Source of the DNA: Geomonas ferrireducens | GTDB lineage: Bacteria; Desulfobacterota; Desulfuromonadia; Geobacterales; Geobacteraceae | DNA: 64,000 bases | Reading direction: 5' to 3' | NCBI RefSeq assembly: GCF_004917065.1 | Contig: NZ_SSYA01000002.1 | Span: 783,897-847,896, forward strand | Part shown: one piece after another, positions 20,835 through 41,755 of the stretch | Layout of the letters: each line of letters begins with the position of its first letter | How positions within the stretch are numbered: position 1 is the stretch's first letter | Notes under the pieces: model-generated | What the model saw: the letters and a program-made list of their open reading frames with translations, nothing else | Database searches by the model: none | Told to the model about the DNA's origin: nothing | Position numbers and translations under genes: made by a program

Positions 20835-22211
20835 ATGAAGCAGAGTATAAAAATACTGATTATCGAAGACGATGACGGGAGCCGGGAGGCGCTGCTCATC
20901 CTGCTTAAGGCGAGCGGCTTTGCCGTAAAAGGGTGTTCCAGCGGGAAAGACGGCCTCGACTTCCTGGCAGGCGAGCCTTTTGACATCGTCATCAGCGACC
21001 TGTTTTTGCCGGATATGAACGGGATCGACATCCTGTCACGGGTGAAGCAGGACTCGCCGCGTACCGAGGTAATCCTGGTTACCGGGCACGGCTCCGCAGA
21101 AACCGCGGTGCAGGCGATGAAGAAAGGCGCCTACGACTACATCACGAAACCCCTTAACATAGACGAGCTCCGCATCATCATCGACAAGGCGGTCGAAAAG
21201 GGGCAGCTGGTCAGTGAGAACGTCTACCTAAGGAAACAGCTTCGTGAGAAGTACGAATTCGCCAACATCATCGGCAATTCGCAGGCGATGCAGCAGCTCT
21301 TCTCGCGTATGCAGAGGATCATAAAGACCGACTCCACGGTGCTGATCCTCGGTGAGTCCGGCACCGGCAAGGAACTGGTTGCCAAAGCGATCCACTTCAA
21401 CGGCAGCCGCAAGGACAAGCCGTTCATCGCCGTCAACTGCTCCGCCATCCCGGAAAACCTGCTTGAGAGCGAACTCTTCGGGCACGTCAAGGGAGCATTC
21501 ACAGGGGCGGTAAAGGAAAAGGTAGGGAAGTTCGAAGCTGCCAACTACGGGACTATCTTCCTGGACGAAATCGGGACACTCCCGATGCACCTGCAAACGA
21601 AGCTTTTGCGCGTCCTTCAGGAGCAGGAAGTGGAGCGGGTCGGTTCCAACAAGCAGATCAAGCTCGATGTGCGGGTCGTTTCGGCGACCAACGTGAACCT
21701 CGAGGAGGAAGTCGCCCGCGGGAACTTCCGCGAGGACCTTTTCTATCGACTGAACGTCATCCCGGTTCAGATCCCCCCGCTCAGGGAGCGGGTCGAAGAT
21801 ATCCTTCCACTCACCAAGCACTTCCTGGAGAAGAACTGCCGTGCGATGCAGCGCCCCATCATGCACCTCGACAAGGAGGCGCTGGAGGCACTGGAGGCGT
21901 ACCCGTGGAATGGGAACGTGCGCGAACTTGAGAACATCATGGAACGCATCGTCGCGCTTACCGAAAGCGACGTAATCACCCTGCGCGACCTACCAGCCAA
22001 CATAGCGAAGAACTATATCGAAGGCTCCCACTCCACCAGTGTCACGCCAGCAGGTATCGACATGGTCCAGGCGATCAACGAGATAGAGAAGCGGATGATC
22101 ACCGAAGCGCTGCAGCTTTCCGGCGGGGTGAAGGCCCGCGCTGCCGTTATGCTGAGCATCAACCGGACCACCCTGGTCGAAAAGATGCGCCGCCTCGGCA
22201 TGCCGCTTTGA
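20835..22211 (+). CDS. NtrC-family sigma-54 response regulator
   Basis: 458 residues from ATG 20835 (MKQSIKILIIEDDDGS). Receiver domain (1-120) with phospho-acceptor D55 and K105. AAA+ domain with Walker A GESGTGKE, the sigma-54 contact motif GAFTGA, Walker B LDEIG, and arginine-finger region VERVGSNKQIKL. C-terminal Fis-type helix-turn-helix. The partner kinase is not in the window. This is the last core gene: the Tn7-like end starts 11 bp after its stop codon, suggesting its 3' end could be the attachment target. Confidence 0.93.
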   Translation: MKQSIKILIIEDDDGSREALLILLKASGFAVKGCSSGKDGLDFLAGEPFDIVISDLFLPDMNGIDILSRVKQDSPRTEVILVTGHGSAETAVQAMKKGAYDYITKPLNIDELRIIIDKAVEKGQLVSENVYLRKQLREKYEFANIIGNSQAMQQLFSRMQRIIKTDSTVLILGESGTGKELVAKAIHFNGSRKDKPFIAVNCSAIPENLLESELFGHVKGAFTGAVKEKVGKFEAANYGTIFLDEIGTLPMHLQTKLLRVLQEQEVERVGSNKQIKLDVRVVSATNVNLEEEVARGNFREDLFYRLNVIPVQIPPLRERVEDILPLTKHFLEKNCRAMQRPIMHLDKEALEALEAYPWNGNVRELENIMERIVALTESDVITLRDLPANIAKNYIEGSHSTSVTPAGIDMVQAINEIEKRMITEALQLSGGVKARAAVMLSINRTTLVEKMRRLGMPL

Positions 22212-22222
22212 TATAAGTCGTC

Positions 22223-22290
22223 TGTCGGGAGACAATTAAGTCGTTACATCGACAATTAAGTTGTTACATCGACAAATAAGTCCTTACATT
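22223..22290 (+). repeat. Tn7-like transposon end with three tandem 20-bp TnsB-type sites
   Basis: The boundary begins TGTCGGGAGACAATTAAGTC. Three abutting 20-bp repeats follow: 22231-22250 GACAATTAAGTCGTTACATC, 22251-22270 with one change, 22271-22290 with more changes. The terminal TGT, the gap of 5 bases and then GACAAT..AAGTC match the Tn7 right end as I remember it (TGTGGGCGGACAATAAAGTC, 16 of 20 identical). The 5 bases before it, TCGTC (22218-22222), would be the target duplication. The opposite end lies outside the window, so the duplication cannot be confirmed. Confidence 0.75.
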
Positions 22291-22763: not shown

Positions 22764-22982
22764 ATGGATACTCAGTATTTTGCAGTAAAAGCCGACACAA
22801 AAAGCACTGCTGAACTTAACCTCCATCCCACGTGGAAACTCAGGTTTGAAACAAATTCCTGCAGTTACAGATGGAACTACTTAAACAGGTGTCTAAGGCA
22901 TCCATGGTCATCGTATTCGAGGCTCAGTCTAGGCCCTAATTTGAACTGGACCTCGACCTTAGAAGGTGCAATCACAATATAA
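22764..22982 (+). pseudogene. Possible truncated gene start
   Basis: ATG 22764 has a strong ribosome site (TAGGAGGCAACTG) and the first 38 residues (MDTQYFAVKADTKSTAEL...) look translated. From 22877 on, however, the frame runs antisense through the end of the recombinase gene. It is best read as the 5' remnant of a gene cut off by arrival of the recombinase segment, or as a chance frame. No family is recognised. Confidence 0.25.
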
Positions 22983-24427
22983 TCACACAGTGCTCTAAGA
23001 ATCAAGTTCACACGTTCACGGTCTAGAGTCTCTTTTGTCACCACTTCTACTAAATCATTAGCATATCTGTGCATTTTGTTAAATTCTATATCTTTATGGG
23101 TGGACATTAAACCCACAATTTCAGCTTGGCATCTTATGATCACTTCTTGCAATTTACTGAGTTTGTCTATAAAATCTTGACCATTGAACGTACCACCATT
23201 AGTTATTTTTACATCACATGTATGATGTTTACTTTTGCTCGTGTCTTTGGATAAATTTAATTGTTTTTTGATATCGTCAATTTCATGATAAGCTTGATTG
23301 ATTACCGGATTTATTTTTAGAAATGAGAACAATGCTTTAGTGAATTCTGGTATAAAAATGATTTCCAGCCGTTCATATCTAACTGTTTGCACACTACAGC
23401 CTTGGCCGTGATGAGCGTTAGTGCAAGCCATGTAGCTTGTTTTTCTCCCCTTACCTAAATGTATCATTCTGCTTCCACATTTATAGCAGCGCCCTAACAT
23501 GAAAAAAATATTGTTTAGTTTGGCTGCTGCATATGGAACTTTCTTAAAAGAATCCCCAATTCTTTGAACAGAATTAAATAACTCCTCCGTAATTGCCGGA
23601 GGATAGTATCCTCTAACTTCGTCTAAAGGGATTCGCCTTACGCCATTGGTATGGTCCATTTTGTGCGGAATAAGAGTTCCTATTATTGCAGGACTTTTGA
23701 GAATTTTGTGAACATAATGCTTACGCCAAACAGAGACCTCACCTTTTTTCCGTGTCCACGTAGGAACACCGTCTTCACGGAGGCCTCTAGCAATCGCCAA
23801 ACAACCTTTCCCATTTAAACGTTCGTGATATATACGATTTATTATGGCTACCCTTTCCGGGATAAGTTCGAATTTTTTAGCTTTGCGATTTAATTTTAGC
23901 CAACCAGGACAACTTGAGGTAAGAGGTTTTGATGTTATATTATTGCGTTTATTGGCCCATGCTTCTTTCATTCGCATCGACTTGGTTTGAGATTCTTCGT
24001 TTGCTCGAATGAGAATTACTATTGCCTCTATCAATAAAAACGGCGCACTGTTGACCAACTCTGCCGAATAAATCTTTTTATCCGAAAGTGTAACTATTGT
24101 TACACCTTCAAGTATAATTTGTGTGAAAATATTTTGAGCTGGGAGTATTAACTCACGACTTATACGATCTAGAGACTCTACAAGTAAATAGCTTCCTGAT
24201 TCTACTTCCTTCCTCCTAATAGCCTCCATAAATTGTCCGAGCCTACCAATTTCGACATTAGCACCTCGAAAGGCTGACACACCGTAATCACGGTATGTCA
24301 ATTTGTCGTCTAGATCCAAACCATTGGCAGCCGCATACTCTTCAGCCTGTTGGATCTGCCGTCGTTTGCTATCCCCCTTTTCTTGTTCTGGAGTGCTGAA
24401 CCTCATATAACTGTAAGCTTTAGGCAC
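22877..24427 (-). CDS. Large serine recombinase
   Basis: 516 residues from GTG 24427, preceded by GGGAGGGGAGGGCACC; ATG 24451 is an alternative. The N-terminal resolvase domain has AYSYMRFSTPEQ, with S11 as the catalytic nucleophile, and ESLDRISR. The recombinase domain (about 185-300) follows, then a zinc ribbon (CYKCGSRMIH...CTNAHHGQGC) and a coiled-coil region. This is the large serine integrase/transposase architecture for site-specific recombination. The gene is clearly AT-richer than the core chromosome. It may have brought in part of the adjacent cargo, or resolve it. Confidence 0.9.
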   Translation of the reverse strand: MPKAYSYMRFSTPEQEKGDSKRRQIQQAEEYAAANGLDLDDKLTYRDYGVSAFRGANVEIGRLGQFMEAIRRKEVESGSYLLVESLDRISRELILPAQNIFTQIILEGVTIVTLSDKKIYSAELVNSAPFLLIEAIVILIRANEESQTKSMRMKEAWANKRNNITSKPLTSSCPGWLKLNRKAKKFELIPERVAIINRIYHERLNGKGCLAIARGLREDGVPTWTRKKGEVSVWRKHYVHKILKSPAIIGTLIPHKMDHTNGVRRIPLDEVRGYYPPAITEELFNSVQRIGDSFKKVPYAAAKLNNIFFMLGRCYKCGSRMIHLGKGRKTSYMACTNAHHGQGCSVQTVRYERLEIIFIPEFTKALFSFLKINPVINQAYHEIDDIKKQLNLSKDTSKSKHHTCDVKITNGGTFNGQDFIDKLSKLQEVIIRCQAEIVGLMSTHKDIEFNKMHRYANDLVEVVTKETLDRERVNLILRALCDYIVIAPSKVEVQFKLGPRLSLEYDDHGCLRHLFK

Positions 24428-24590
24428 GGTGCCCTCCCCTCCCTCGGCCATACCAATTAATACATACCTCAGGGAACGGTCTAACGACACATGTTGCGCA
24501 TGAAAGGCTTAAGCACTTTTGAACGACAAGAGGAACAAGACATCTCGCTGAGAGTAAATAGTGGCGCTAAAGAGATTGGTGCATAAGGCC

Positions 24591-25259
24591 TTATTGTGGT
24601 CCACTTAAGCTAAAAATATATCCAACCCCCCTTAACGTATGTATCAATTTTGTGTCAGCATCTTTATCTACTTTTTTTCTCAAATAATTGACATAAACAT
24701 CGATTATGTTTGTAAAACTATCCAGCTCGTGTTCCCAAACAGTGCTTGATATATCAGGTCTTGTAACAGTCATCTCTGCATGTTCAACAAAATAAAGTAA
24801 TAGTTTGTACTCTATTTGTGTTAACTCAATTTCTTTTCCATCTCTCCAAACTTTGTGCGTGACCGGATCGAGACGGATCGGGCCGTACACTAATTCTGCC
24901 CCTCTTTTATTTTTAACCCTACGCAACATTGCCTTTATTTTAGCCACCAAGATCTTAGGGTCAAATGGTCTCGAGACGCAATTATCTGCTCCTGAATCCA
25001 AAGAAAAAATGACATTTTGAACAGAACTATCTTCTGTTAACGCCATGACAGGCACAGACCGGTTATGGCTCCGTATGACGCTCACAAGGTCCAAACCATC
25101 TTGTCTGGATATGGCCAAGTCCACTATTACCAAATCAAATTTATTTTGCTCAAAGGATCTAGTTCCTAGTTCTCTCTCGTTGGCATGAATAACCTCTGGA
25201 AAATTTTTTTCAGCAATTTTTTTCAGTTTTGCATCCCTGCTGATAAGTAGCGTTCTCAA
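24591..25259 (-). CDS. OmpR-type response regulator with degenerate receiver
   Basis: 222 residues from TTG 25259, preceded by GGAGGGCGAG. The receiver domain (about 1-118) keeps D47 in the phosphorylation position (IVDLA). The N-terminal acidic pair is replaced by LLISRD, and the conserved Lys is R97 (SRPFD), so normal phosphorylation is doubtful. The C-terminal winged helix (about 125-220: IEYKLLLYFVEHAE, RGVGYIF) is intact. No histidine kinase is adjacent. AT-rich like the recombinase, and likely imported with it. Confidence 0.88.
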   Translation of the reverse strand: MRTLLISRDAKLKKIAEKNFPEVIHANERELGTRSFEQNKFDLVIVDLAISRQDGLDLVSVIRSHNRSVPVMALTEDSSVQNVIFSLDSGADNCVSRPFDPKILVAKIKAMLRRVKNKRGAELVYGPIRLDPVTHKVWRDGKEIELTQIEYKLLLYFVEHAEMTVTRPDISSTVWEHELDSFTNIIDVYVNYLRKKVDKDADTKLIHTLRGVGYIFSLSGPQ

Positions 25260-25383
25260 CTCGCCCTCCGGCTTTATTGTTTGACAAAGTTAATTTAAAA
25301 CATACACTCTTTTTTAAATATTTGTCAACATTAACATTCAGTACTGATTTTTTTTACGCTAACCACAGGGGATTGGACACCAC

Positions 25384-25695
25384 ATGAGTGGCGAACGATG
25401 CTTCACGGGGGACCAAGACCACATCCGGGAGAACCGCGACAGCTTTGTCAAGGCATTCCCCCCTGCTGTCCGCGATATCTTCGATCGGTTCGACTTACAC
25501 GCCCAAGTGGCCCGTACCCACAAGTGCGGCTTTCTGTCCCAGGTGGAAGATAAATTCTCCAAAGTCGACCTGCACCTTGGGGAGGTGGACTACCACCAAG
25601 TGGGGATAGTTTTCCAGGAGCAGATCAGGAAGTTCGCTGAGATCTCGAGTGAAACGGCATGCAAGCATTTCACCCAACGTCAGATGTCTGCCTGA
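25384..25695 (+). pseudogene. HsdM (type I methyltransferase) fragment
   Basis: A 103-residue frame holds a stretch typical of the HsdM N-terminal half: AVRDIFDRFDLHAQV, then VDLHLGEVDYHQVGIVFQEQIRKFAEISSETACKHFTQRQ, equivalent to the FEELIRxFAEISNETAGEHFTPRE stretch of functional subunits. The downstream methyltransferase motifs are absent, because the sequence passes straight into a decayed sigma-54 activator. There is no hsdS or hsdR nearby. This is a dead remnant of a type I restriction system. Confidence 0.7.
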
Positions 25696-25696
25696 A

Positions 25697-26373
25697 GGTT
25701 CGAGCGGGCTAACGGGGGGACTCTTTCCTTGGATGAAATTGGCGAGCTGCCGTAGCACGCACAAGTTAGGCTCTTGCGCGTGTTACAGACAAAAGAGATA
25801 GAACGGGTTGGTGGCGAGAGGAGCATCCCGGTCGATGTCCGAATTATCGCGGCAACCCACCGGAACCTTGAACTGATGGTGTCGGAAAATCAATTTCGTG
25901 AGGACCTGTGATTTAGGCTTAATGTTTTCCCAATTATGATCCCCCCCACGGCGACAACGAAGAGAGGAAATGTCAGCACTTACATGGCATTTTGTGAATC
26001 TAAAGTCGCGTGAACTCGGATTTGCAGCGTCTCCACCTATAGAGCTTGGGGTATTAGAGAGATTAGTGGATTATGAGTGGCCTGGGAACGTGCGTGAACT
26101 GGAAAACCTAGTGGAGAGAGAACTCATCAGGCATCGAGGAGGTCAACTTAAATTTGACATACTGATTACTTCCGACACGGGAGGTGACCAACCACCTTTT
26201 GACAGTGATAAAAGGGGCGAACCACTAAACCCATGGCCTTACACATCTGCAGGGTTGTGAAGCTTGCCAAAGGTAAGATTTTCGGTCCGGGTGGTGCTGC
26301 TGCATTGCTAGGGATAAATCCCAATACCCTGAGAGCGCATGAACAAACTTGGCATCAAACATGGCCGCAGTAC
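25697..26373 (+). pseudogene. Decayed sigma-54 activator (paralogue of 39344-40873)
   Basis: The frame starts at RFERANGGTLSLDEIGELP, followed by an in-frame stop (TAG 25753-25755). It continues as [17 protein letters not shown], hits a second stop (TGA 25909-25911), then shifts frame in a C run near 25945. It resumes as WPGNVRELENLVERELIRHRGGQLKFD and ends with GPGGAAALLGINPNTLR. Each segment aligns with the intact regulator at 39344-40873, so this is a broken relative that has lost the sensor and Walker A parts. Confidence 0.85.
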
Positions 26374-26488
26374 TAAGTGATATATAAAAAACCAGATATT
26401 GCTAAGCCTAACACAAGGATCGACAATTGATTTAAGTGTGAATTAGATTCATACAAAGGGACTGCGTTAGATATCCTTGTTACTGTAA

Positions 26489-27082
26489 TCAGCTAAGTAT
26501 TTTATCGATTGCTAGTTTGAAATTTGCTTTTTCGGGCTGCTCGTAATAAATAGTTAGAGCTTGACTGTTTTCAAGGATTATCGCGACCACTCGGATATTT
26601 CGCGCTTCCAGTGACCTACGATAGAGACCATTTAGTTGCTTTTCAATGAGGCTCGCGTGAGAGCAGATGTCAACAATCAATCCTCCACCACGTTCTGCCA
26701 TACCGGGTGCCAACGCTAAGCACAGAGCAAGGGTTCCTGTTGATTCTGCTAGTGCAGCTCTCCTTACGGCATTTAATCCGAGCGGACCAGCCACCGGATC
26801 CTCATGATCTATGGATGTGGTATTGAAGAACACCTCTACATCGCGAAACTGCTTGACTGCAGCCGCAACCGTTGCGGGGTTTGTTACATCCAGCTGAATC
26901 CGAATGACTTTATCAGAAGTTAAACCATCCTCCCTGCCAATTGGTTCTGACTTACTCGCAGCATAAACCTTGGCCACCCCCCTTTCTAGCAGTGCACAAA
27001 CTAAAGCTTGCCCCAAGCGTTTGTGTGCGTCAGTTACCAAGATAATCTTGCCCTTCAAATTACGATTCCTACAGTTTCCCAT
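26489..27082 (-). CDS. Diverged short-chain dehydrogenase-like protein
   Basis: 197 residues. The N terminus (KGKIILVTDAHKRLGQALV) has the shape of an SDR cofactor loop but lacks the normal TGxxxGIG glycines. The middle (RIQLDVTNPATVAAAV) follows the SDR pattern, and AERGGGLIVDICSHAS covers the catalytic Ser region. The expected YxxxK is replaced by LYRRSLEAR, and the protein stops short of a full SDR. It may be non-catalytic or decaying. ATG start is only weakly supported (no clear ribosome site). Confidence 0.55.
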   Translation of the reverse strand: MGNCRNRNLKGKIILVTDAHKRLGQALVCALLERGVAKVYAASKSEPIGREDGLTSDKVIRIQLDVTNPATVAAAVKQFRDVEVFFNTTSIDHEDPVAGPLGLNAVRRAALAESTGTLALCLALAPGMAERGGGLIVDICSHASLIEKQLNGLYRRSLEARNIRVVAIILENSQALTIYYEQPEKANFKLAIDKILS

Positions 27083-27097
27083 GCGCAGTCCTAAACG

Positions 27098-27131
27098 TAA
27101 TGAGCCCCACCTTGGGAGGTAGGGCTCATTA
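27098..27131. terminator. Hairpin between cytochrome operon and SDR-like gene
   Basis: TAATGAGCCC/GGGCTCATTA stem continued by an inner ACCT/AGGT stem. It sits 18 bp past the end of the cytochrome operon (minus strand). There is no long T run, so this is a likely but imperfect terminator. Confidence 0.6.
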
Positions 27132-27148
27132 TGACAACAAAAGTCTTT

Positions 27149-28765
27149 TTAAGGCCTAGTACCTATGTAGCCTCTAGCGGCCGAGACCGGAACAGTGGCG
27201 CTGGAGAACGAACTGAAGCTGATGGCCCCAGTCACTTTACCGTGCTGCAGGTAGTCGACTGAGTCGAAGATCAGCCGTTTAGCGTAGATCTGATTGTGTG
27301 CGAAGGCGCCGGGTTCATGCTTTAGCAGGCTGAAGTTGAAAGCAGCCCCCATGTTTTGCCTGCCGTTCCCACCAATTGGGCCGACTGCATTCCAGTTCTT
27401 CGTTGCGAAGTAAGGGTAATTCGATGTGTAGCTCATTCCATAGTAGGAGAGCATGGCCTGCAAGAAATCAAGCGATGCCTGGTACCCTGCCTTCTCCTCT
27501 TCCAGTTTTGTGGCAGTCATTGCAAAACCACCCTGATGGCATTTAGTGCAGATTCCGCCGGCCTGCATGCCGGGCACGACCGAAAGGGTGTGGGTGCCGT
27601 TCGTCATGTGGCAGGAGACACAAGGACCATCTGTACCGGTGGCTCCGAAGCTGAATCCTGGAATGGACAGAGGCAACACGTAGTTGTTGATGCCGATGTT
27701 TTTGTGAGAGAAATGGGTGTTGCTGAAATCAAGCGACGGATCATATGCAGCCGGATCGCTGTAGTACTTGAATCCTACCTTGCTGTAGAGGATGGCTGCG
27801 GCGGCAAGATAATGCGGGTTGACAGCCGAAAAATCAGCATTGCCGAAGTCAGTTACTGCTTCGATGCCGGCCTCGTTAATCAAGCCGGTGTGGCACGGTA
27901 CGCAAAGGTTGGAGGTCGCAGCGTCAGCATAGGCTACGGTCTGCTGGGGGCCGGCTACCCCATAGGAGGCGGTATAGGCCCCAACGCGACGTACCCGATT
28001 CTTGAAGTTGTAGTCGGTGTGGCAAGCCTTACAGGTAAGAACTTCCCTGCTGGTGTCACCAGTTTGTGCCCAAGTCGTCGTGGGGAAGGGTGACGCGAAA
28101 TTTCCGTCCACGAAGTGGATGAAGCCTGTCGAAGTGTGGCAGCGCAGGCAGGTGTAGCTGTTGCCGATCTTTCGGTTCTTAAAGTCGTAAGTTGCCCAGG
28201 CGGCCCCCTTTACGTTTCCGTGCCCGGACTCAGCCCAATCCGAATGCTGGGTCCCCTTCGCCTGACCGGTCAGCGTGTTCACCTTGCCGTCTAGGATGCC
28301 GTTGTTGCCGAGATGGGGATCATGGCAACTCGTGCAAGAGGTTTGATAATTCTTGCTGACGTACATCGCGTCCGCCGCAGTGAGAACGTCGCTGGTGGTG
28401 GCCGCGGCGTAGTGTGCAGCGCTCAAGTGGCCGGTATGGCAGGAAAAACACTTGCCGGATGCATCTGGGTTGGTGTAGGGGATAGGGCCGACGCCGTTGT
28501 GCTGCGCACCGCCGCCATGGCAGTCCTGACAGCCGACCACGTGGAAGTTGTTGGTATAATGTGACGACGCCAGGTACGCTTGGTATATCGGTGTTCCTGC
28601 AACCGGGTCGATGGCGGTGCTATGGCACTGGGCGCATGCTGCCTCGCTGATTTTAGACACATCAGCAGAGGAGCCCCCTTCCTTGTTGCTCGAACCGCAT
28701 CCTGCGATGAAAGCGGTCGAAAGCATCGTTATGGCCGCCGAAAATCTTACTACCTTATTGATCAT
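27149..28765 (-). CDS. Outer-surface lipoprotein multiheme c-type cytochrome, nine CxxCH
   Basis: 538 residues from ATG 28765, preceded by AAGGAGGATTCAGA. The lipoprotein signal MINKVVRFSAAITMLSTAF ends in lipobox IAGC (C22). Nine CxxCH heme sites are visible (CAQCH, CQDCH, CFSCH, CTSCH, CLRCH, CKACH, CVPCH, CVSCH, CTKCH). It is the third gene of a porin / 8-heme / lipoprotein-cytochrome operon, the layout of the OmbB-OmaB-OmcB electron conduits of Geobacter, where this position is the cell-surface cytochrome. OmcB has 12 hemes and is larger, so this is a smaller relative. Confidence 0.88.
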   Translation of the reverse strand: MINKVVRFSAAITMLSTAFIAGCGSSNKEGGSSADVSKISEAACAQCHSTAIDPVAGTPIYQAYLASSHYTNNFHVVGCQDCHGGGAQHNGVGPIPYTNPDASGKCFSCHTGHLSAAHYAAATTSDVLTAADAMYVSKNYQTSCTSCHDPHLGNNGILDGKVNTLTGQAKGTQHSDWAESGHGNVKGAAWATYDFKNRKIGNSYTCLRCHTSTGFIHFVDGNFASPFPTTTWAQTGDTSREVLTCKACHTDYNFKNRVRRVGAYTASYGVAGPQQTVAYADAATSNLCVPCHTGLINEAGIEAVTDFGNADFSAVNPHYLAAAAILYSKVGFKYYSDPAAYDPSLDFSNTHFSHKNIGINNYVLPLSIPGFSFGATGTDGPCVSCHMTNGTHTLSVVPGMQAGGICTKCHQGGFAMTATKLEEEKAGYQASLDFLQAMLSYYGMSYTSNYPYFATKNWNAVGPIGGNGRQNMGAAFNFSLLKHEPGAFAHNQIYAKRLIFDSVDYLQHGKVTGAISFSSFSSATVPVSAARGYIGTRP

Positions 28766-28788
28766 TCTGAATCCTCCTTGGCTGTGTA

Positions 28789-29484
28789 TCAAAATGTTCC
28801 TGGTATGTGGCATTTAAGGCAGACCTTGTTTCCGGCCTTGTCCTTGTAGTTCGAGCTGATCCCTTTCCAATTGCGCGGATGCGGATTGGTCTTGCCGCTG
28901 GAGTGACACTGGATGCAAACGTCACCTTCCGGGTGGCAGACCTGGCAGGATTGCAAGTTGCGCCGAGCCTCGATGACATGTTCGTTGATTGCAGGTGCGT
29001 ACCGTTGGTTATTCGGCCCAAGCATCAAGTGCGACTTGATCCTCATGCTACCTTTCGGAAAGCGAGCATGGCAGGAGTTGCAGTATTTCTGGTCGTGGCA
29101 GCGGTAGCAGGTCTGCGGGTTCTCCTGGGCCTTGATCGGGTGCAGGTTCACGAAGTCACTGCGATGGCTCTTAGGCACATAGTCACGACCGTAGTTGGAC
29201 CTGGTGAGATCCGAGTTGATGCCGCCGCCCTGATGACAATCAAGACAGTAGGCCTGGGTGTGGCATTGGGCGCAGTTGTTGTTGGCTTTGCTTGCTAAGG
29301 TGCGATGGCCGCGCACCCAGTCCCTATCGTGGTTAAGTGCGACGCCCTCGCCCTTGTGGCAATCGTTGCACTCAGAGAGTGTCACCTGGGCGTATTCCTT
29401 GTGCTGCTGCTTTTCAGCCAATGCCTGTTTGGTATACAAGACGGGCAGGAGGCACAGCATACACATAAACAACAAGTTCCTCAC
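28789..29484 (-). CDS. Periplasmic eight-heme c-type cytochrome (OmaB-like)
   Basis: 231 residues with a signal peptide (MRNLLFMCMLCLLPVLYTKQALA) and eight CxxCH motifs: CNDCH, CAQCH, CLDCH, CYRCH, CNSCH, CQVCH, CIQCH, CLKCH. Both the size and the heme number equal those of Geobacter OmaB, the periplasmic partner that passes electrons through the porin. It is 14 bp from the porin gene upstream and 23 bp from the surface cytochrome, clearly one operon. Electron source and terminal acceptor are not shown by sequence. Confidence 0.9.
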   Translation of the reverse strand: MRNLLFMCMLCLLPVLYTKQALAEKQQHKEYAQVTLSECNDCHKGEGVALNHDRDWVRGHRTLASKANNNCAQCHTQAYCLDCHQGGGINSDLTRSNYGRDYVPKSHRSDFVNLHPIKAQENPQTCYRCHDQKYCNSCHARFPKGSMRIKSHLMLGPNNQRYAPAINEHVIEARRNLQSCQVCHPEGDVCIQCHSSGKTNPHPRNWKGISSNYKDKAGNKVCLKCHIPGTF

Positions 29485-29498
29485 TGTAGTACCCCTTT

Positions 29499-30713
29499 CT
29501 AGAAGTCGATATCAAAGCTCACGCGCCCCGACACGTTGGTCTCGTAGCGGGCGTTCACGTCGTCCTGGATCCTTCCTGAGACCCCCATATTGCTGGCAAG
29601 CTTGTAGGAGCTACCGAGCCAGTACCTGCGCGCGGTTTCCTCGTTGGTCATGGAATCGCGCTGGTACACATCGTAGGTAAACCCTGCGGCAACCTGGGAA
29701 ACCTTGTTGAGGTCGTAGGTCGCATCGATGATTACACCGTTCGTGTTGCCGTAGTAACCGTTTCGGTTGTCATACTCGATGTTCACCTTCAAAGGCTCGA
29801 TCGGGCGGATGCCGGTGCCTACATGGTAGACGTTGGCATGGCCGCCGTCGCCGTACCACTGACGGTTGTACCCAAAGTTCATCGACAACCTGTCATTCAA
29901 GGTGTAGTCGGCTCTGAACAGCGCCTCGGTGTAGTCGTTCACAGCAAACACAGAGTAGATTGAAGTTGTATCAAAGGTCGCATAGCTCCTGTAGTACTCC
30001 CCGGTAAAGATGAGATCCGATGTGGGGAAGTACTTTACCCCGCCCAGAACCTCGTTGAATGCCTCGGCAGTGATGTCGTATTTTGCATTGCCGTACAGCT
30101 TCACGTTGTTGAAGAGGTACTGCTTAAACGAGCCACCGATGATGTCTCTCGTGATATCACTGCCATCGAATTTTCGGAGCCAACTGACCTCCGCATCGGT
30201 TTCTCGGAAACCGCTCAAGTATGCAGCGAGACCGAATACGGTATTGCCAGCGTTTCCCGTTTCGCCGTTAAGGCCGAACACCACGTCGTGGCCACCAAGC
30301 ACCGTAAACGCAACAGGTCCTACGTTTTTCACCCCGATCAGTGCCCCGTCAACGATGGCACTGCCAGCTGAGACATCTACGAACTGGCGACCAATCCTAA
30401 GATCGATCTTTTCATAAAGGTCACGGTAGTCCCCATAGAAGTAGTAGAGTCTGCCATTGAGGCCGTCGCCATTGGTGAAGTCCTGAGACCCCCTGCCATA
30501 GCCATGAATAGTGAACTTTCCCTCCTTGTCGATGTTAGTGATTGAGAACCGCAGATATTCGGCCAGCTCAATCTGTCGTTTGCCATTCAGCATTTCATCG
30601 CTGAATGACTGAAACTGCGTGGAACTCCTGCCATGTATCTCCGTCGCCATACTCGTTGAGGCGGCGAACAGCGAGCAGAAGAACAACACTCCTTGCAACC
30701 CTCTAACCCCCAT
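29499..30713 (-). CDS. Outer-membrane porin of a porin-cytochrome conduit
   Basis: 404 residues from ATG 30713 (MGVRGLQGVLFFCSLFAASTSMA), preceded by AGGAGG; longer upstream readings lack support. After the signal peptide the protein is alternating polar/aromatic strands (for example FTIHGYGRGSQDF, RLYYFYGDYRDLYEK) and ends in VSFDIDF with a C-terminal Phe, the outer-membrane barrel signature. In Geobacter conduits such a barrel houses the 8-heme cytochrome across the outer membrane. It is first in the operon with the two cytochromes, the same order as ombB-omaB-omcB. Confidence 0.85.
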   Translation of the reverse strand: MGVRGLQGVLFFCSLFAASTSMATEIHGRSSTQFQSFSDEMLNGKRQIELAEYLRFSITNIDKEGKFTIHGYGRGSQDFTNGDGLNGRLYYFYGDYRDLYEKIDLRIGRQFVDVSAGSAIVDGALIGVKNVGPVAFTVLGGHDVVFGLNGETGNAGNTVFGLAAYLSGFRETDAEVSWLRKFDGSDITRDIIGGSFKQYLFNNVKLYGNAKYDITAEAFNEVLGGVKYFPTSDLIFTGEYYRSYATFDTTSIYSVFAVNDYTEALFRADYTLNDRLSMNFGYNRQWYGDGGHANVYHVGTGIRPIEPLKVNIEYDNRNGYYGNTNGVIIDATYDLNKVSQVAAGFTYDVYQRDSMTNEETARRYWLGSSYKLASNMGVSGRIQDDVNARYETNVSGRVSFDIDF

Positions 30714-30860
30714 CAAATAAGCCTCCTTACTTTGCATTGGAACAACTGGTGAATCAGAAGACCCTGTAATTGACCACCTCCTCCAGTTTGATAAATGGTG
30801 AAACATCACTACGATGTGAGAGATGCAAAAATAGGGGGGCACGATTTCCGGCAGCTTAAG

Positions 30861-30876
30861 AGCTAGAATTGTGCCA
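30861..30876 (-). promoter_or_regulatory. Candidate sigma-54 promoter of the porin-cytochrome operon
   Basis: On the minus strand TGGCAC-N5-TAGC (TGGCACAATTCTAGCT) matches the -24/-12 consensus TGGCAC-N5-TTGC except one base, with the essential GG and GC at the correct spacing. It lies about 150 bp upstream of the porin start. Sigma-54 activators, one intact and one decayed, are encoded on either side of this operon. Confidence 0.5.
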
Positions 30877-30928
30877 TTGCGTAACATACTAATTTAAAAC
30901 GATTGGGGATTTTTGAACGGTGGGAGGA

Positions 30929-30963
30929 TACCAAATGCGGTGATATGTTCACCGCATTTGGTA
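30929..30963. repeat. Perfect 15-bp inverted repeat with 5-base loop
   Basis: TACCAAATGCGGTGA (30929-30943), TATGT, TCACCGCATTTGGTA (30949-30963). No T run on either strand, so it is not a clear terminator for the hemerythrin gene; it may be an operator or a transcript-end stem. It is upstream of the porin promoter candidate. Confidence 0.55.
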
Positions 30964-31055
30964 ATATTGATTTATTGTGTCAAATACCGTAAAACAGAAG
31001 GATTTGAAATTACGACATATCACTAAGATGGAAATATCGGGGTTCGCGTGAGTGT

Positions 31056-31409
31056 TTAGTAGTCGCAATCAAATTTTCGAACGTGCTCAAGCCACTGCGC
31101 CTTGAGAAAATGCAGTTCGCGGGCAGGGACGTTGTCGCCGTAGCCATGCCCGTGGACAATCCTAGCGGCAAGTCTGCAGATGAACCTATGGTGCTCGCAG
31201 TGCTGCTGATAGTTCGGTAACCCGAGCACCTTCAGGTGGTCCTCCTCATCTTGAACATGAGCTACCATCTGCAAAAGTAGGAGGGCAATGGATTCTCTCC
31301 AATTGTGCTGTCTACCTTCGACCACATGGCACGCCACGTCATCTATCACGTTGACGATCCGGTGGAATCGGCTGTCCGTTCCCTGGTACACCATAGAAGA
31401 CATTCCCAT
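31056..31409 (-). CDS. Bacteriohemerythrin-like protein
   Basis: 117 residues from ATG 31409, preceded by GAGGAACGATCTTC. It has hemerythrin-type spacing of metal ligands: HVQDEEDH (H-x3-E), a QHCEHHRF group and the C-terminal WLEHVRKFD (H-x4-D). The N-terminal first-helix His is less clear. Hemerythrins bind a diiron site and carry or sense oxygen in microaerobic settings. There is no signaling domain, so it is a stand-alone carrier or scavenger. Near an oxidoreductase gene. Confidence 0.75.
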   Translation of the reverse strand: MGMSSMVYQGTDSRFHRIVNVIDDVACHVVEGRQHNWRESIALLLLQMVAHVQDEEDHLKVLGLPNYQQHCEHHRFICRLAARIVHGHGYGDNVPARELHFLKAQWLEHVRKFDCDY

Positions 31410-31505
31410 GAAGATCGTTCCTCAACGCTCTCTTTTGTAGAAAAAAGCTACAAGACAGACGCCGACCCAGACGAGCAAAGTGAGCAAGACTACGACTTTC
31501 ATCCT

Positions 31506-32138
31506 CTAAAAGCTCAGTGCGGCCAAGCGGGCCTTTATCATAGCTGCTTCTTTGTATTCTTCAGCCAGGTCCGGCATGGCATCGACGCCTTCCAGCACGA
31601 TTGCTTCGAAGTTTTCGATCCCCATGAAGCCCATAATCGACTTAAGGTAGGGTACCGAATGGTCCTCTTCATTGCCATAGTGGAAGCCCCCATTCGAGTG
31701 AATATGGAGACATTTTCTACCCTGATTTTTCAGCAGGCCCACAGCGCCGGTCGGAGTGTAGGTGAATGTTTTGCCAACCACGCATACCGTATCTATGTAC
31801 ATCTTTAATTCCGCAGGGAACCCGAGATTGAACATCGGTGTCACGAACACATACTTGTCTGCTGCAATGAATTGGTCTGCATGCTTCCAGATGCGGTCGA
31901 CTTTGCGTCCTTCGTGGTAGGAGAGGGATGCGAGACCGTCTCCACTACGCAATTTCCCCCAACCAGACAGCACATCGGCATCGATGCGTTGAATGTTGTC
32001 TCGGTAAAGGTCAAGAAAATGCACCTCGTCCTCCGGGTTATGCTTTATGTACTCGTTTAGAAACTCATTCCCCACTGAAAGACTGCGGGAAATTTCCATA
32101 GGTTTAAGGTTGCAGGTCACGTAGAGTAATTTTGCCAT
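31506..32138 (-). CDS. azoR: FMN-dependent NADH-azoreductase/quinone reductase
   Basis: 210 residues from ATG 32138 ([13 protein letters not shown]), preceded by AAGGAGAACATC. The flavodoxin-like fold has the FMN phosphate loop near SRSLSVG and the AzoR signatures [19 protein letters not shown] (about 90-108) and [10 protein letters not shown]. It reduces azo dyes and quinones by two-electron transfer from NADH, protecting against quinone stress. It sits between a hemerythrin gene and a drug-efflux operon, consistent with a detoxification role. Confidence 0.87.
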
Positions 32139-32288
32139 GATGTTCTCCTTCATAGTGTTTTTCCTGTTGGCTTTCGCCTGGTGTTCCCATATCCCCATTT
32201 TGCAGATGACAGCACTGATGCGGACATAGACCAAAGCAGTTAATATCTAATGATCAATTGGAGGCATTCTCGACTTTTCATTGGTTGT

Positions 32289-33365
32289 TTATCCTTCCTC
32301 ATCATCCTTCGATTGCTTTTTTGCGTTCGGACCTGTTCCAATCTCAATCGTTGGCTGCACAGACATGCCAACTCGTAATTGCTTGCTTGCGACCTGGCCG
32401 GGGGCAATACTTATGCGCACAGGCAAACGCTGAATTATTTTGGTGAAATTGCCTGTTGCGTTCTGCGGTGCGACTGGGGCAAATGAAGCACCGCTTGCTG
32501 GTGACAAGCTTGCGACGCTGCCCGAAAGGACCACGCCAGGCAGTGTGTCAACGCGGATCGTAACGGATTGTCCTGGGCGAATACGGGCAAGCTGCGTTTC
32601 CCGGAAGTTGGCTTCGATATAGACCTTATCCAGCGGCACCACTGCCAGCAGAGGCATACCGGTGGTGACGAAGGCACCCTGGCGCACGGAACGGCGTGCT
32701 ATGGTCCCGTCTATGGGAGCGACGATCTTGGTGTAGGAAAGGTTGAGTTCGGCCGCAGCTTGTACGGCCTTGGCCCGCTGCAGCGAGCTTTCCGCTTTTT
32801 TCAGATCGGCTTCAAGTATCGATGTTTGCTGTCGGGCCGCTTCTACGCCGGCCTTGTCGCGGTCGAGCGCTGCCAGGTGCACCTGTAATTGGGTCTCCGC
32901 ATTCTGGGCCTCCTGGCGAGTTCCTGAACCATCAGTTGACAGGTTGCGATAACGCTCAGTATTGGCTTTCGCGAGGGCAATCGAAGCTTCATCCGACCTA
33001 ACGGCAGCTTGAGCCTGCTGGATAGTTGACGCATTTCGCTTGATGGTTGCCTTCAGGCTTTCAATGGCGGCCTGTGCTGCTCCTGCCTCTGCTTGAGCGC
33101 TCTGGACGGAAACCTTCAGGTCGTGGTCGTCGATTACCGCCAGTAGCTGACCAGCCTTTACGGTTTCGTTATCGTCCACAAGAACACGAGCTATCTGCCC
33201 GTTAACTCGCGGGGCTACCAGGGTAAAATCCGCCCGTACATATGCATCATCGGTTGATTGCCTATCCGCATCGGATTGGTGATGATTGAGAAGGTAAATA
33301 CCCGCTCCGACTACGGACACAAGAAGGAGACCGGAAATGATCATTGCTGTTTTTGGAAATGCCAT
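32289..33365 (-). CDS. emrA: EmrA-type HlyD membrane fusion protein
   Basis: 358 residues. One N-terminal membrane helix (IISGLLLVSVVGAGIYLL) is followed by biotinyl-lipoyl half motifs (TLVAPRVNGQIARVLVDDNETVKAGQLLAVID), a long coiled-coil hairpin (about 80-190) and a beta barrel (VAPIDGTIARRSVRQGAFV). It is the periplasmic adaptor that links an EmrB pump to an outer-membrane channel. Four bases separate it from the pump gene upstream, so they form one operon. Substrate class is unknown. Confidence 0.9.
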   Translation of the reverse strand: MAFPKTAMIISGLLLVSVVGAGIYLLNHHQSDADRQSTDDAYVRADFTLVAPRVNGQIARVLVDDNETVKAGQLLAVIDDHDLKVSVQSAQAEAGAAQAAIESLKATIKRNASTIQQAQAAVRSDEASIALAKANTERYRNLSTDGSGTRQEAQNAETQLQVHLAALDRDKAGVEAARQQTSILEADLKKAESSLQRAKAVQAAAELNLSYTKIVAPIDGTIARRSVRQGAFVTTGMPLLAVVPLDKVYIEANFRETQLARIRPGQSVTIRVDTLPGVVLSGSVASLSPASGASFAPVAPQNATGNFTKIIQRLPVRISIAPGQVASKQLRVGMSVQPTIEIGTGPNAKKQSKDDEEG

Positions 33366-33369
33366 TGTC

Positions 33370-34938
33370 TTATCCTTTGTTTGTGATAGGTGCTGAGGTT
33401 TGCCGAGCCGGAGCCGCTATGTAATCCATTCGTAATACGAAAGGTATGAGCAGGACCGCCAGCGCGGCGAGCATCAGATAGCTGTCAGCATTGGCCAAAA
33501 CAAAAGCCTGCTGACGAGCACTGTCAGTTAATGCGGCTAGGTTGTCTTGGGATAGCGGTATATTCGCAGAAATCCGGCCGATGCGATCCACAAGCATCTC
33601 CGAATGAAAATGCTGACGTAGACGGAAAAAATGACCGATCATAGCACCGCCAAAAATTACCCCAAAGGCGCGCAGGGTATTGATGGTGCCGGCCACAAAG
33701 GGGCCTTCCATCGGTTGCACCACGCTGGTCGTCAAGAACAACAGACCAACCACCGCCATGGCCTGCCCGGCGGCCTGCAGCATCTGTGCTAGTACGAACT
33801 GATCAACAATCCAACTGGCCGTTATATGCGTGCAGAGCAGACATGCGACTGCGATCAAACCTATTCCAGAAGCCATAACTATGCGGGCGTCCACCCACTT
33901 CCGGTAAAATAGCGAGGCTACGGCAAGCGATAGAACCGGCTGAGGCAAAGCGATCAGGAGCCCGATCGGGGCGCTCTGCAAGCTGCGGTAGCCCCATAAA
34001 GCTTCAAGATGCATCCCCGGCAACTTCGAGCTGGACATCATGACCATCAGCAGGAAAACGAAGACTGAAAAACCCACGCCCAAGTTTCGTTTTTGCAGCA
34101 ACAGTTGCGGCTTTATGAACGGGGCCGGGTAATACCACTGGCGGATCAGGAAGACGACCATCATGGAAATGCCGCCACCGATCAACCAGCAGAGCAAGTC
34201 AGAGTGCCACCAATCCAGGCGCTCCCCCTGGTCCAGCCCGATGGCTAGCATTCCCAAGGCCGCCGCGCCGCATACCATGCCGAACCAGTCGGTCTGTCCT
34301 AGACGCTCTGGCCGTGTCGGGTCCTGTGGAATTCCCCACCATCCCATCCCCATCGCCAGTAACCCGAAAGGCAGGTTTTGCCAATAAAGCAGGCGCCAAT
34401 CAAACCAAACATCAGTCCAGTTACTGGCCATCCAGAGCCCTAGATTGGGCGAAAAAGTGGCCGTCAAGGCGTACAGCGACATACCGTACAGGCGAATTGG
34501 TATTGGGAAAAACCGCAACGCCGATAGCATGAGAATCGGGATCAGCATCCCCCCCGCAACTCCCTGAAAGCTGCGCAGCAACAGCAAGGCAGACAGGTCG
34601 TGTACTAAGGGGATGATGAAAGAGAGCAGGACAAACAGTCCCGTCATCAACATGTGGAAACGCCTAAGGGAAATGATCGTTGCCAACCAGATAGAGAAAG
34701 GCATCGCGATCAATTCCGCGGCAACGTACACGGTGTTGAGCCAGCTACCCTCATCTGCCCCAAGGCCAAGTACCCCGCGCACGTCGGCCAGCGCCAGAGA
34801 GCCGATGCGATTGCTTAGGCCTGCTACCATGGCGGAAATGAGGATGCCCAGGAAACCAGTGAACAGGCGCCCACTGAATGGAGTCGCTGGTGCGTTACCG
34901 GGAGGTGCGGGAGTTGATGTAGCCTGATTCGCACTCAT
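33370..34938 (-). CDS. emrB: EmrB-type MFS efflux pump (DHA2 family)
   Basis: 522 residues with about 14 predicted membrane segments, beginning LFTGFLGILISAMVAGLSN and with the DHA2-type region PFSIWLATIISLRRFHMLMTGLF. It exports hydrophobic drugs or phenolic compounds using the proton gradient. It overlaps the outer-membrane channel gene by 4 bp (ATGA, 34935-34938) and is followed after 4 bases by the emrA-like adaptor gene. It completes a tripartite Gram-negative efflux system. Confidence 0.9.
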   Translation of the reverse strand: MSANQATSTPAPPGNAPATPFSGRLFTGFLGILISAMVAGLSNRIGSLALADVRGVLGLGADEGSWLNTVYVAAELIAMPFSIWLATIISLRRFHMLMTGLFVLLSFIIPLVHDLSALLLLRSFQGVAGGMLIPILMLSALRFFPIPIRLYGMSLYALTATFSPNLGLWMASNWTDVWFDWRLLYWQNLPFGLLAMGMGWWGIPQDPTRPERLGQTDWFGMVCGAAALGMLAIGLDQGERLDWWHSDLLCWLIGGGISMMVVFLIRQWYYPAPFIKPQLLLQKRNLGVGFSVFVFLLMVMMSSSKLPGMHLEALWGYRSLQSAPIGLLIALPQPVLSLAVASLFYRKWVDARIVMASGIGLIAVACLLCTHITASWIVDQFVLAQMLQAAGQAMAVVGLLFLTTSVVQPMEGPFVAGTINTLRAFGVIFGGAMIGHFFRLRQHFHSEMLVDRIGRISANIPLSQDNLAALTDSARQQAFVLANADSYLMLAALAVLLIPFVLRMDYIAAPARQTSAPITNKG

Positions 34939-36452
34939 TGTTGCGGGCCTCCAGATTCACCCGTCTGGGATGCCCATCCCCCCCCGAGCGCCTTGTACAG
35001 GTTGACCATGGCGATGGAGACACGGCTCGTGTTGTCGGCGAGTTCCATCTGGCTGGCCAGCAATGAGCGCTGCGCTGTCAACACCATCAGATATTCGGCG
35101 GCGCCCTGCTCATAGCGCCTCAGCGCGACAGCATAGGCCTTGCGGTACTCGTCGAAGGCGAGTGTGAGTTGCTCCCTGCGCCTTTGGACATCGGCGTAGG
35201 CGCTGAGCGTGTCATCAACTTCATGCCAGGCGTGCAGTACCGTTTGCTGGTAGGCGATCGCCGCTTCCTGTTGACGAGCCTCACTCAAGGCAAGCGTGCC
35301 TTTTAGCCTGCCACCTTCGAAGAGGGGCAGGTAGAGAGTCGGTCCCACTGCGAAGGTGCGCGATGCCCAGTTGCCGAAGGTGTCCAGGTTGAGGGACTGA
35401 AAACCGAGACTGCCGTTCAGGCTTATGCGCGGATAGAAATCAGCTTTGGCTACACCGATGGCAGCTGTCGCAGCATGCAGGCGTGCTTCGGCTTGGAGGA
35501 TGTCGGGGCGACGGCGCGCAAGTTCAGAGGACAATCCGATTGGCACTTTGCTTGGCACGGGCGGGATTTGGTGCGTTGGTGTCAACAAGGAATTCAGTGC
35601 ACGAGGAGGTTCACCAAGCAGCAATGCCAGGGCATTCATCAGCGCGTCACGTTGTTCCTCGAGACGCGGGACCAGCGCCTTTGTCGATGCCAACTGTGCA
35701 GCCGATGCCGACGACTCGAAGCGGGTGGCTACGCCATTTTTCACGCGACTGTCCGCCAGCTTAAGAGCATTTTCGGCAATGGCCAGGTTTTGGCGGGTAA
35801 TGTCCAATTGCGTCTGGACGTGGCGCAACTGAATGTAGGCGCGAGCGACCTCTGCGGCAATGGATACGCGCACCCCTTCTCGTTGGAACGCGCTTGCCTG
35901 CAGCGATGCCGCAGCAGACTCGCCGGTCCTCCGGGCGTGCCCCCACAAGTCGATTTCCCAACTCGCGTTGAATCCCGCCTGCATAATATCGTACGGACTG
36001 TCGGGAGCGCCAAGTAGCGCCATTTGGCCGTTTGCACTGTCCGCGGCCCGCGCATAGGAACCGCCTAGGCTGAGATGCGGAAGCCCTACAGAATTGGCGA
36101 CGCCGGTCTGCGCACGGCTTTGCGCCAGACGCGCAGCCGCCAACTGCAGATCGAGGTTCCCTTTCTGAGCGCGTTCTTGAAGTTCGCTCAGGATCTCGTC
36201 GTTGAACAGCGTCCACCATGCTGTCTCCATCTTCCCCGTCACTACTTGGCTCTGCCTGCCGATTTCGTCGGTGGTCTCCATGAGGTGCGCGGGAGGCGTG
36301 CTCACCGGCCTCTTGAAATCAGGGCCGACGGCGCATGCGCTCAGGAAGGCGAGGCTCAGGAACACGGGCAAGTGGCGGATGTATTTTCTTCCATCCGGCC
36401 GGTTTGTGAACTTTCTAGTCATGTCAAAAACGTTTTCATTTCCAAACCGCAT
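34935..36452 (-). CDS. Outer-membrane efflux channel lipoprotein (NodT/TolC family)
   Basis: 505 residues. An N-terminal signal ends in lipobox LSAC, followed by AVGPDFKRP, the exact start typical of NodT-type channels. The helical hairpins with RRPDILQAEARLHAATAAIGVAKADFYPRI are the family hallmark. It forms the outer-membrane duct for the EmrAB pump encoded next. Start 36452 gives an unusually long n-region; ATG 36422 (MTRKFTNRP) is an alternative, without a better ribosome site. Gene order channel-pump-adaptor is common in proteobacteria. Confidence 0.88.
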   Translation of the reverse strand: MRFGNENVFDMTRKFTNRPDGRKYIRHLPVFLSLAFLSACAVGPDFKRPVSTPPAHLMETTDEIGRQSQVVTGKMETAWWTLFNDEILSELQERAQKGNLDLQLAAARLAQSRAQTGVANSVGLPHLSLGGSYARAADSANGQMALLGAPDSPYDIMQAGFNASWEIDLWGHARRTGESAAASLQASAFQREGVRVSIAAEVARAYIQLRHVQTQLDITRQNLAIAENALKLADSRVKNGVATRFESSASAAQLASTKALVPRLEEQRDALMNALALLLGEPPRALNSLLTPTHQIPPVPSKVPIGLSSELARRRPDILQAEARLHAATAAIGVAKADFYPRISLNGSLGFQSLNLDTFGNWASRTFAVGPTLYLPLFEGGRLKGTLALSEARQQEAAIAYQQTVLHAWHEVDDTLSAYADVQRRREQLTLAFDEYRKAYAVALRRYEQGAAEYLMVLTAQRSLLASQMELADNTSRVSIAMVNLYKALGGGWASQTGESGGPQQ

Positions 36453-36502
36453 GATCTACCCCAGACAAGTGTTAAACGAAGCTTGTAAAGTCGCCGGATC
36501 GC

Positions 36503-36820
36503 TTATCGATTCCTCGTTGTGCCGAATTCGATGGGCGACTTGATGTAAAAGACATCGATCCCTTCCTGCTTCAAATGCTCTAAAAATATGCTGGCCGCCT
36601 CCTCGCTGACTGCCATGGAGACCTCTATAGGTTGATCGGAGACATCAAAATATCCTACGAAGTGTAGTTTTCGCTCTCTACCAAAACCTTCTGCGGCAGT
36701 GAACAGCGTTGCGCCTTTGATGCCCATGCAAAGCGCCTCCTCAATGAGCCATTCCCCCAGGCACCGATTCTTATGTGTTCGGTCCTGCTGGGTAAAAAAT
36801 GTCAGCTGATATCCATACAT
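36503..36820 (-). CDS. DUF190 (PII-like) protein
   Basis: 105 residues with a ferredoxin-like PII-type fold pattern: YQLTFFTQQDRTHKNRCLGEWLIEEALCMGIKGATLFTAAEGFGRERKLH is the DUF190 signature. Members occur alone or beside fluoride/ion transporters and may bind nucleotides, but the role is undetermined. It is 50 bp upstream of the efflux-channel start and could be cotranscribed. No CrcB is adjacent. Confidence 0.82.
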   Translation of the reverse strand: MYGYQLTFFTQQDRTHKNRCLGEWLIEEALCMGIKGATLFTAAEGFGRERKLHFVGYFDVSDQPIEVSMAVSEEAASIFLEHLKQEGIDVFYIKSPIEFGTTRNR

Positions 36821-37304
36821 TGTCTTTCCCTCCCATTTTGTTTCATGAATGGTAGCGAGATCAGGATTTACAGAGGGGGGGCACTTGGTAATTCCCCAGT
36901 CTTGCTAAATCACTTATCATTGCTATAGCGACATTCATGCCAAAGAAATTGTTATGTAATAACAGGTATTTAAAAACAAGCGTTTAGACAATCACCAAAT
37001 AAAGCAAAACTGCGGGGCTTGCCTTTGTTAAATTCAGCAATTTACTAAATAAGGGAATGCCGTTGGGCTTTGCTCCTGCCTGTGCGATATGCCTGCATAC
37101 TGCAGGTTATTGCCCAGGAGGCGTAAGTGGGGGGCAATTCACGTTCTGGGGGGGATAGAACAAACTAGTGATGAAAGATGGTGTGGTTAAGGAGAACAAC
37201 TAGGAGATCGACTCGGTCCGCTCCGAATGATACCTCTGATGGCATTTTGCCCCACAGGATGGCTCCTGAGGGGCAAAATGTCATGCAACTTGCACAGAAT
37301 CCTT
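36821..37304. other. Intergenic region with promoter and hairpin
   Basis: About 480 bp of AT-rich sequence between the DUF190 start and the isochorismatase stop. No gene is supported. It probably holds the promoter for the minus-strand DUF190-efflux operon. A hairpin (37244-37279) has arms ATTTTGCCCC/GGGGCAAAAT plus an inner AGGA/TCCT stem and likely ends the isochorismatase transcript. Confidence 0.5.
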
Positions 37305-37910: not shown

Positions 37911-37996
37911 AATTGTCTCCTTCTGTATCAAATTCATACATCTGATTTGACTACGCCTGCTGGTCCCGATGGGGACTAACGTTTTCTAGGTTATGA

Positions 37997-41701: not shown

Positions 41702-41755
41702 TGGAGTGAATGCCTGGCTCACGCTCGTTTTGTCAACCCACGCGTTGGCGTTCAT
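41582..41755 (-). pseudogene. Truncated small membrane protein start
   Basis: 57-codon frame, MNANAWVDKTSVSQAFTPLL followed by WQSFYVIVGSAVAAVIAIQYA, resembling the N terminus of a family of small inner-membrane proteins (usual FYVLVGSAAAALTGL pattern). It then stops, and its end overlaps the recombinase fragment antisense. It is read as a gene start cut off at a junction near 41625. No clear ribosome site. Confidence 0.3.

Follow-up and report, generated by a model that had tools for sequence, protein, structure and literature searches.

A 51,660-bp Tn7-like transposon inserted just past a conserved NtrC-type regulator gene in Geomonas ferrireducens, and a candidate TnsD selector for this site

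Results

A transposon end follows a response regulator gene

The DNA analysed here (the window) is a stretch of 64,000 nucleotides from Geomonas ferrireducens. It sits in a 1.6-Mb contig of a 4.81-Mb genome, and positions beyond 64000 are given as window-equivalent. A response regulator gene is followed by a transposon right end and then, going inward, by a serine recombinase gene, about 30 kb of cargo, tnsA, tnsB, tnsC, tnsD1, tnsD2, gajA, gajB and a dsr1-like gene (Table 1). The regulator fell under every cut-off of the NCBIfam AtoC, NtrC and PEP-CTERM response-regulator models. Its identification as PrsR was dropped, the PEP-CTERM response-regulator model giving 428.5 bits for a cut-off of 502.6, and because of this score we call the protein NtrC-type only.

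Table 1. Features of the element and its insertion site (positions beyond 64000 are window-equivalent)
Feature	Position	Strand	Remarks
NtrC-type sigma-54 response regulator gene, 477 aa	20778..22211	+	Pfam Response_reg, Sigma54_activat, HTH_8; 3' end taken as the attachment site
Codons for NRTTLVEKMRRL, proposed selector-binding site	22161..22196	+	+59 to +24 from the duplication centre, 22220
CGTC, flush 4-bp direct duplication	22219..22222		repeated right after the left end, 73883-73886
Transposon right end	22223..22290	+	TGTCGGGA, then three abutting 20-bp TnsB-type sites starting at 22231, 22251 and 22271
Large serine recombinase gene, first long ORF inside the right end	22877..24490	-	Pfam Resolvase, Recombinase, Zn_ribbon_recom
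Cargo: regulators, multihaem cytochromes, MFS/HlyD/OEP efflux set, many oxidoreductases	24591..51619
Nickel-pincer cofactor genes larE, DUF362, larB, larC	52389..55824	+	larE, larB, larC above NCBIfam cut-offs
tnsA, 305 aa	56369..57286	+	Pfam TnsA N and C; PDB 1t0f (Tn7 TnsA), E=7.9e-38
tnsB, 718 aa	57265..59421	+	PDB 7pik (Tn7 TnsB), E=3.4e-79, residues 13-662
tnsC, frame-split	59381..60981	+	frame shifts once near 60049-60058; open from 59381 to 60070 and from 60115 to 60981
tnsD1, 598 aa	61003..62799	+	Pfam TniQ and TnsD; PDB 8glu (Tn7 TnsD), E=1e-13
tnsD2, 544 aa, proposed reader of the regulator gene	62796..64000, on to 64430	+	Pfam TniQ and TnsD; PDB 8glu, E=1.4e-18

The initial annotation had described a terminal TGT and three gapless 20-bp repeats as a Tn7-like right end. 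The repeats proved to be placed as claimed: the copies at 22231-22250, 22251-22270 and 22271-22290 were 100, 95 and 85% identical to the first copy, and the array began 8 bp inside the TGT at 22223. With up to 3 mismatches, the repeat unit was found 3 times in the window versus 0.01 times on average in shuffled sequences, none of 100 shuffles giving 3. The change in base composition reported at the same place was measured as a fall in GC from 0.58 over 21750-22249 to 0.35-0.43 in 500-bp steps from 22750 to 25249. The resemblance of the first 20 bases to the right end of Tn7 at 16 positions was reproduced with the right end beside tnsA in plasmid R721 (NC_002525.1). This 16/20 match was the highest of all 20-mers of the window on either strand (runner-up, 15), and the abutting sites attributed to Tn7R were seen in the Tn7R of R721. 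A whole-genome search with the site pattern (up to 2 mismatches) returned only the three right-end sites and one left-end site.

The left end lies beyond the window

An inverted copy ending in ACA had been predicted downstream of 64000. It was indeed present past the window end on the same contig, with the inverted repeat site 51.5 kb away. This left end comprises three spaced inverted sites, two of which were weak in a matrix scan (19.0 and 18.3 versus 26-28 for the others), and its terminal ACA falls at window-equivalent 73882. From 22223 to this position the element measures 51,660 bp, with TnsB-type site arrays in opposite orientation at its two ends and TGT/ACA termini.

The bases after the terminal ACA were expected to be TCGTC and turned out to be CGTCT. 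The flanks (TCGTC versus CGTCT) thus share 4 bp flush with the ends; moving the start of the right end inward by one base would make it 5 bp. The corresponding element of Geomonas edaphica Red53 (genome G007, Geobacterales; the window genome is G000) has flanks AGTCG and GTCGT, with the same one-base offset and the same two readings. The offset therefore occurs in both dual-TnsD elements (22219-22222 and 73883-73886 here; C1:330033 and 408785 in G007), whereas three relatives at the site carry perfect 5-bp duplications: CCCTC in G043 (the metagenome-assembled Geobacter sp. H2geo), GCAGC in G018 and GTCTC in G009. The offset may have arisen by slippage, from a 4-bp stagger or through the joining of ends.

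We considered the possibility that the 22-56 kb region and the tns region were inserted separately, and that the right and left ends come from different elements joined by a deletion. Such a history could explain the imperfect duplication, the 34 kb of cargo between the right end and tnsA, compared with 135 bases in R721, and the recombinase genes within the cargo. Yet no further end was found between the right and left ends with a matrix built from six end sites (next best score 14.0 versus 18.3-27.9), and no hidden second end was seen before tnsA. Furthermore, G007 has the same offset at its own ends, and a flush 4-bp match is expected by chance only once in 256. A double insertion therefore appears unlikely.

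The element encodes Tn7-type transposition proteins

The repeats had been read as the edge of an element whose tns genes lie far to the right. This reading as a right edge stood: the inverted left end exists, the tns genes begin at 56369, at a distance of 34 kb, and for the larger part of their length TnsA and TnsB match those of Tn7. Not foreseen were the sharing of the attachment site with other elements, the imperfect 5-bp duplication (4 bp flush), the two long TnsDs and the broken frame of tnsC. TnsB had no fitting Pfam match, and three of its acidic residues are aligned with those of Tn7 TnsB that we take to be the catalytic DDE triad.

The N-terminal piece of TnsC matched Tn7 TnsC (PDB 7mbw, E=8.2e-19), while the C-terminal piece had no Pfam match. 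The gene is a single open frame in G007 and G043, and the open TnsC of G007 could be aligned to the window DNA in two frames, with 58 and 50% identity. The frame change at 60049-60058 may be genuine or may stem from misassembly. Because tnsC is frame-broken, the window copy is probably immobile now, provided that the break is genuine and that no other source supplies TnsC.

TnsD1 and TnsD2 share 30% identity. A CCCH finger is invariant in all five aligned TnsDs, including both of the window; in Tn7 TnsD the finger consists of C124, C127, C152 and H155 and is described, in the excerpted Tn7 literature, as required. The element thus combines TnsA and TnsB, a frame-broken TnsC, TniQ/TnsD proteins with the CCCH finger and inverted arrays of about 20-bp sites, which are features of the Tn7 family. 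No cas family was found among the part of its ORFs scanned with Pfam.

The cargo includes the nickel-pincer cofactor genes larE, DUF362, larB and larC (52389-55824), which ride on the transposon. A tyrosine-recombinase fragment of 122 aa, slightly under the Pfam cut-off, lies within the cargo at 41333-41701. Beyond the window, gajA and gajB were best matched by PADLOC models with E values of 2.6e-221 and 1.4e-218; the best Dsr1 match of the 1275-residue dsr1-like product spans residues 1-348 and is under the model cut-off.

The 3' end of the regulator gene is occupied in several genera

The right end had been said to abut a core gene. In agreement with this, of the 141 genomes of the order, 119 had a match to the regulator (E<=1e-165), and these represent 25 of 29 genera; at 1e-150 or better, a match was present in all 19 genomes of the genus, orthology being judged solely by similarity. 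The gene is not glmS, the target of canonical Tn7. A tRNA or other RNA gene as target was ruled out, the window having neither a tRNA nor an Rfam match at the gathering score.

End-like sequences start 10-12 bp past the stop codon of the regulator gene in 6 of the 19 genomes of the genus. Across the order, a TnsB-site pattern (up to 1 mismatch, 141 genomes, both strands) was found in 12 genomes at 32 places, versus 3 for the reversed control, and 10 of these 12 genomes hold it at the 3' end of the regulator gene. The two others are G005, in which only a left end is present, about 0.75 kb behind the gene, and G025, in which the end is on a different contig from the gene. G006 was missed by the pattern, its first site having an extra base and the others being too divergent; with this genome added, 11 genomes from five genera have a related end 5-13 bp past the stop of the corresponding gene. 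The distance is 10-12 bp in eight of them (10 in G007 and G015; 11 in G000, G009, G018 and G043; 12 in G006 and G045), the others being G055 (9), G120 (13) and G092 (5). The terminus reads TAT instead of TGT in G120 and G092. The pattern was derived from ends already seen at the regulator gene, so other sites may be under-sampled and the occupancy count is a lower bound. A looser pattern with 2 mismatches (24 places versus 14 for the control in 19 genomes) mixed real ends with chance matches and was set aside as evidence; it served only to locate the far ends of G005, G007 and G018.

In ten other species of the order, this spot holds related elements or their leftovers, and for this reason it looks like a docking site for this transposon family. 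By analogy with Tn7 at glmS, insertion just downstream of the regulator would place the element without breaking the gene. The abutting repeats could in principle serve the regulator gene itself, as regulatory sequences or a terminator, given that they directly follow its stop codon in 11 genomes. This reading is extremely improbable: an inverted counterpart bearing the same sites exists at the opposite border, relatives show target duplications, and only 10 of the 119 genomes with the gene show the pattern there.

Both ends were found in five inserts, those of G000, G007 (78,753 bp), G043, G018 and G009. The G043 element, from a second genus, spans 20,331 bp, encodes only one TnsD and starts 11 bp past the stop. 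Three genomes that differ in their inserts share the same chain-length gene as the neighbour of the far end. Six of the 11 genomes have a right end lacking a clear partner within the DNA examined. Thus, no left end scoring 15 or more was detected in G006 (100,000 bp), G015 (78,412 bp), G055 (59,701 bp), G045 (39,800 bp) or G120 (21,500 bp); in the 39,801 bp from G092, two weak sites in reverse orientation (17.6 and 15.8), which may be a decayed left end, lie at a distance of 2 kb. A right-type end with abutting sites faces the gene in 10 of the 11 genomes, G009 being inverted.

Three further observations concern the site and its surroundings. The end in G025 (C12:60336; L139, L174) has two abutting sites, lies away from the regulator gene and has no tns genes in the surrounding 39.8 kb; a second target or a remnant are possible explanations. 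In G003, 40 bp of the regulator 3' end recur at 90% identity as a partial copy about 0.9 kb downstream (L079 1510-1549), with two small genes similar to a HEPN/MNT pair in between. A different mobile element may also exploit this 3' end. Among 42 more distant TnsD loci (L097-L138), taken from a set of 44 whose other two members are G007 and G043, none had a regulator homologue (1e-10) in the DNA examined, which indicates that the site is limited to this clade or that it lies beyond the flanks examined. The TnsD of one of these loci, L097 (MAG Gammaproteobacteria bacterium FW104_bin.7), is 37% identical to TnsD2, and a scan for abutting repeats showed no ends for L097 or L098; no target was found for L097 either.

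TnsD2 is the most likely reader of the regulator gene

The 36 bp that encode NRTTLVEKMRRL lie at the C-terminal HTH of the regulator. A degenerate pattern of these codons (35 nt, up to 3 mismatches) occurred once in the 4.81-Mb genome, and the reversed control gave 0. The regulator protein, used as a query, found 221 candidate places in the same genome, many of them presumably paralogues; 85 were scored and one reached 1e-150. For Tn7, the 36-bp TnsD site is placed at +23 to +58 from the duplication centre in the excerpted text of PMC2918618. Most likely, TnsD2 reads the NRTTLVEKMRRL codons, which would be positioned like the footprint of Tn7 TnsD on attTn7.

TnsD2 is proposed as the reader on the basis of the G043 element, which has one TnsD, nearest to TnsD2. 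We also considered that TnsD1 reads the regulator gene and that TnsD2 serves another site. Both proteins are long, and the two large elements that the genus has at this site contain both kinds. Yet the single TnsD of G043 is closer to TnsD2 than to TnsD1 over the first 180 columns (47 versus 38% identity), in the middle (35 versus 30%) and in the C-terminal part (37 versus 30%). Moreover, between G000 and G007 TnsD2 is 54% identical, as compared with 37% over 466 aligned residues for TnsD1, which is shorter in G007. An exchange of roles is thus rather unlikely, and TnsD1 probably serves to recognise a second, different target.

By the scheme that we propose, TnsB would bind the 20-bp sites at the ends, and TnsA and TnsB would excise the element. 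TnsD2 would bind the 36 bp encoding the regulator recognition helix NRTTLVEKMRRL and, via TnsC, guide the element to a point some 10 bp beyond the stop codon, with the right end facing the gene.

Two relatives carry inserts in which no tns genes were found

The inserts of G018 (6,137 bp) and G009 (6,010 bp; L074 1544-7553) have both ends and perfect 5-bp duplications. No TnsB relative (1e-20) and no TnsD relative (1e-10) was detected in either genome. The G018 insert carries a chromate transporter and a multihaem cytochrome as cargo; five ORFs of the G009 insert had no Pfam match. The gene-side end of the G009 insert is 85% identical to the left end of G018 over 177 bp, and its far end is 88% identical to the right end of the window element over 177 bp. 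Since the gene-side end resembles a left end and the far end a right end, the G009 insert is inverted.

These inserts suggest a wider scenario, which we hold to be evenly balanced between true and false. A Tn7 lineage of Geobacterales would have evolved its own homing site, with a TnsD reading the DNA of the regulator recognition helix, and cargo-only 'mini-Tn7' islands of about 6 kb would be moved in trans to the same site, sometimes reversed, by visiting full elements. The G018 and G009 inserts may have moved in trans; alternatively, tns genes may have been lost after insertion.

Discussion

Our data make it very likely that the window contains most of a 51,660-bp Tn7-like transposon, inserted just past a conserved NtrC-type regulator gene, with TnsD2 directing insertion via TnsC. 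Several observations weigh against this interpretation: the inverted G009 insert, which departs from the orientation control of Tn7, the G025 end on another contig, the imperfect duplication, the two weak left-end sites and the lack of a regulator homologue in the DNA examined at the 42 more distant TnsD loci.

The order of the tns genes is like that of Tn7, in which the left-end sites are also spaced. Further similarities are the TnsA, TnsB, TnsC and TnsD homologues, the TGT/ACA termini, the CCCH finger of TnsD, the abutting 20-bp right-end sites, as in the Tn7R of R721, and the insertion shortly behind a conserved gene that the right end faces. In contrast, the target is an NtrC-type response regulator gene instead of glmS, and the window element has a pair of long TnsDs, an imperfect duplication and a broken tnsC, its tns genes being 34 kb distant from the right end. 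Tn7 inserts about 20 bp past its gene, according to the excerpted text of PMC2918618, versus 10-12 bp past the stop in eight of the 11 genomes here.

Loci with two adjacent tniQ/tnsD genes are common in Tn7-like elements (998 in PMC10293859), one TniQ-TnsD being usually longer than 400 aa and its partner substantially smaller; here both are long (598 and 544 aa). The parE-, glmS- and tRNA-homing TnsDs of CASTs, as presented in excerpts of PMC11406308, likewise read a conserved gene as a chromosomal attachment site, but their target genes differ, and no cas family appeared among the ORFs of the window element that were scanned. The protein-read homing sites of the Tn7 type named in the excerpted sources are glmS, parE, tRNA genes and comM. 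'Geobacter' does not appear in the main texts of PMC10293859 and PMC8649781, and a search of titles and the beginnings of abstracts, with supplementary tables and subscription papers outside its scope, returned no report of this regulator gene as a Tn7-type site or of natural Tn7 islands without tns genes. The element is of a known kind, a Tn7-family transposon with dual TnsD, and its attachment site was not found in the literature searched.

A further target gene, together with a 544-aa selector and a motif occurring once in this genome, would offer a testable case of how a TnsD changes its target, and for Geobacter-type bacteria a possible site-specific insertion tool. Trans-mobilisation and the setting of orientation are questions on which natural copies with cargo alone, one of which is reversed, would throw light. 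For these bacteria, the site represents one door through which cytochrome, metal-transport and phage-defence genes enter the genome.
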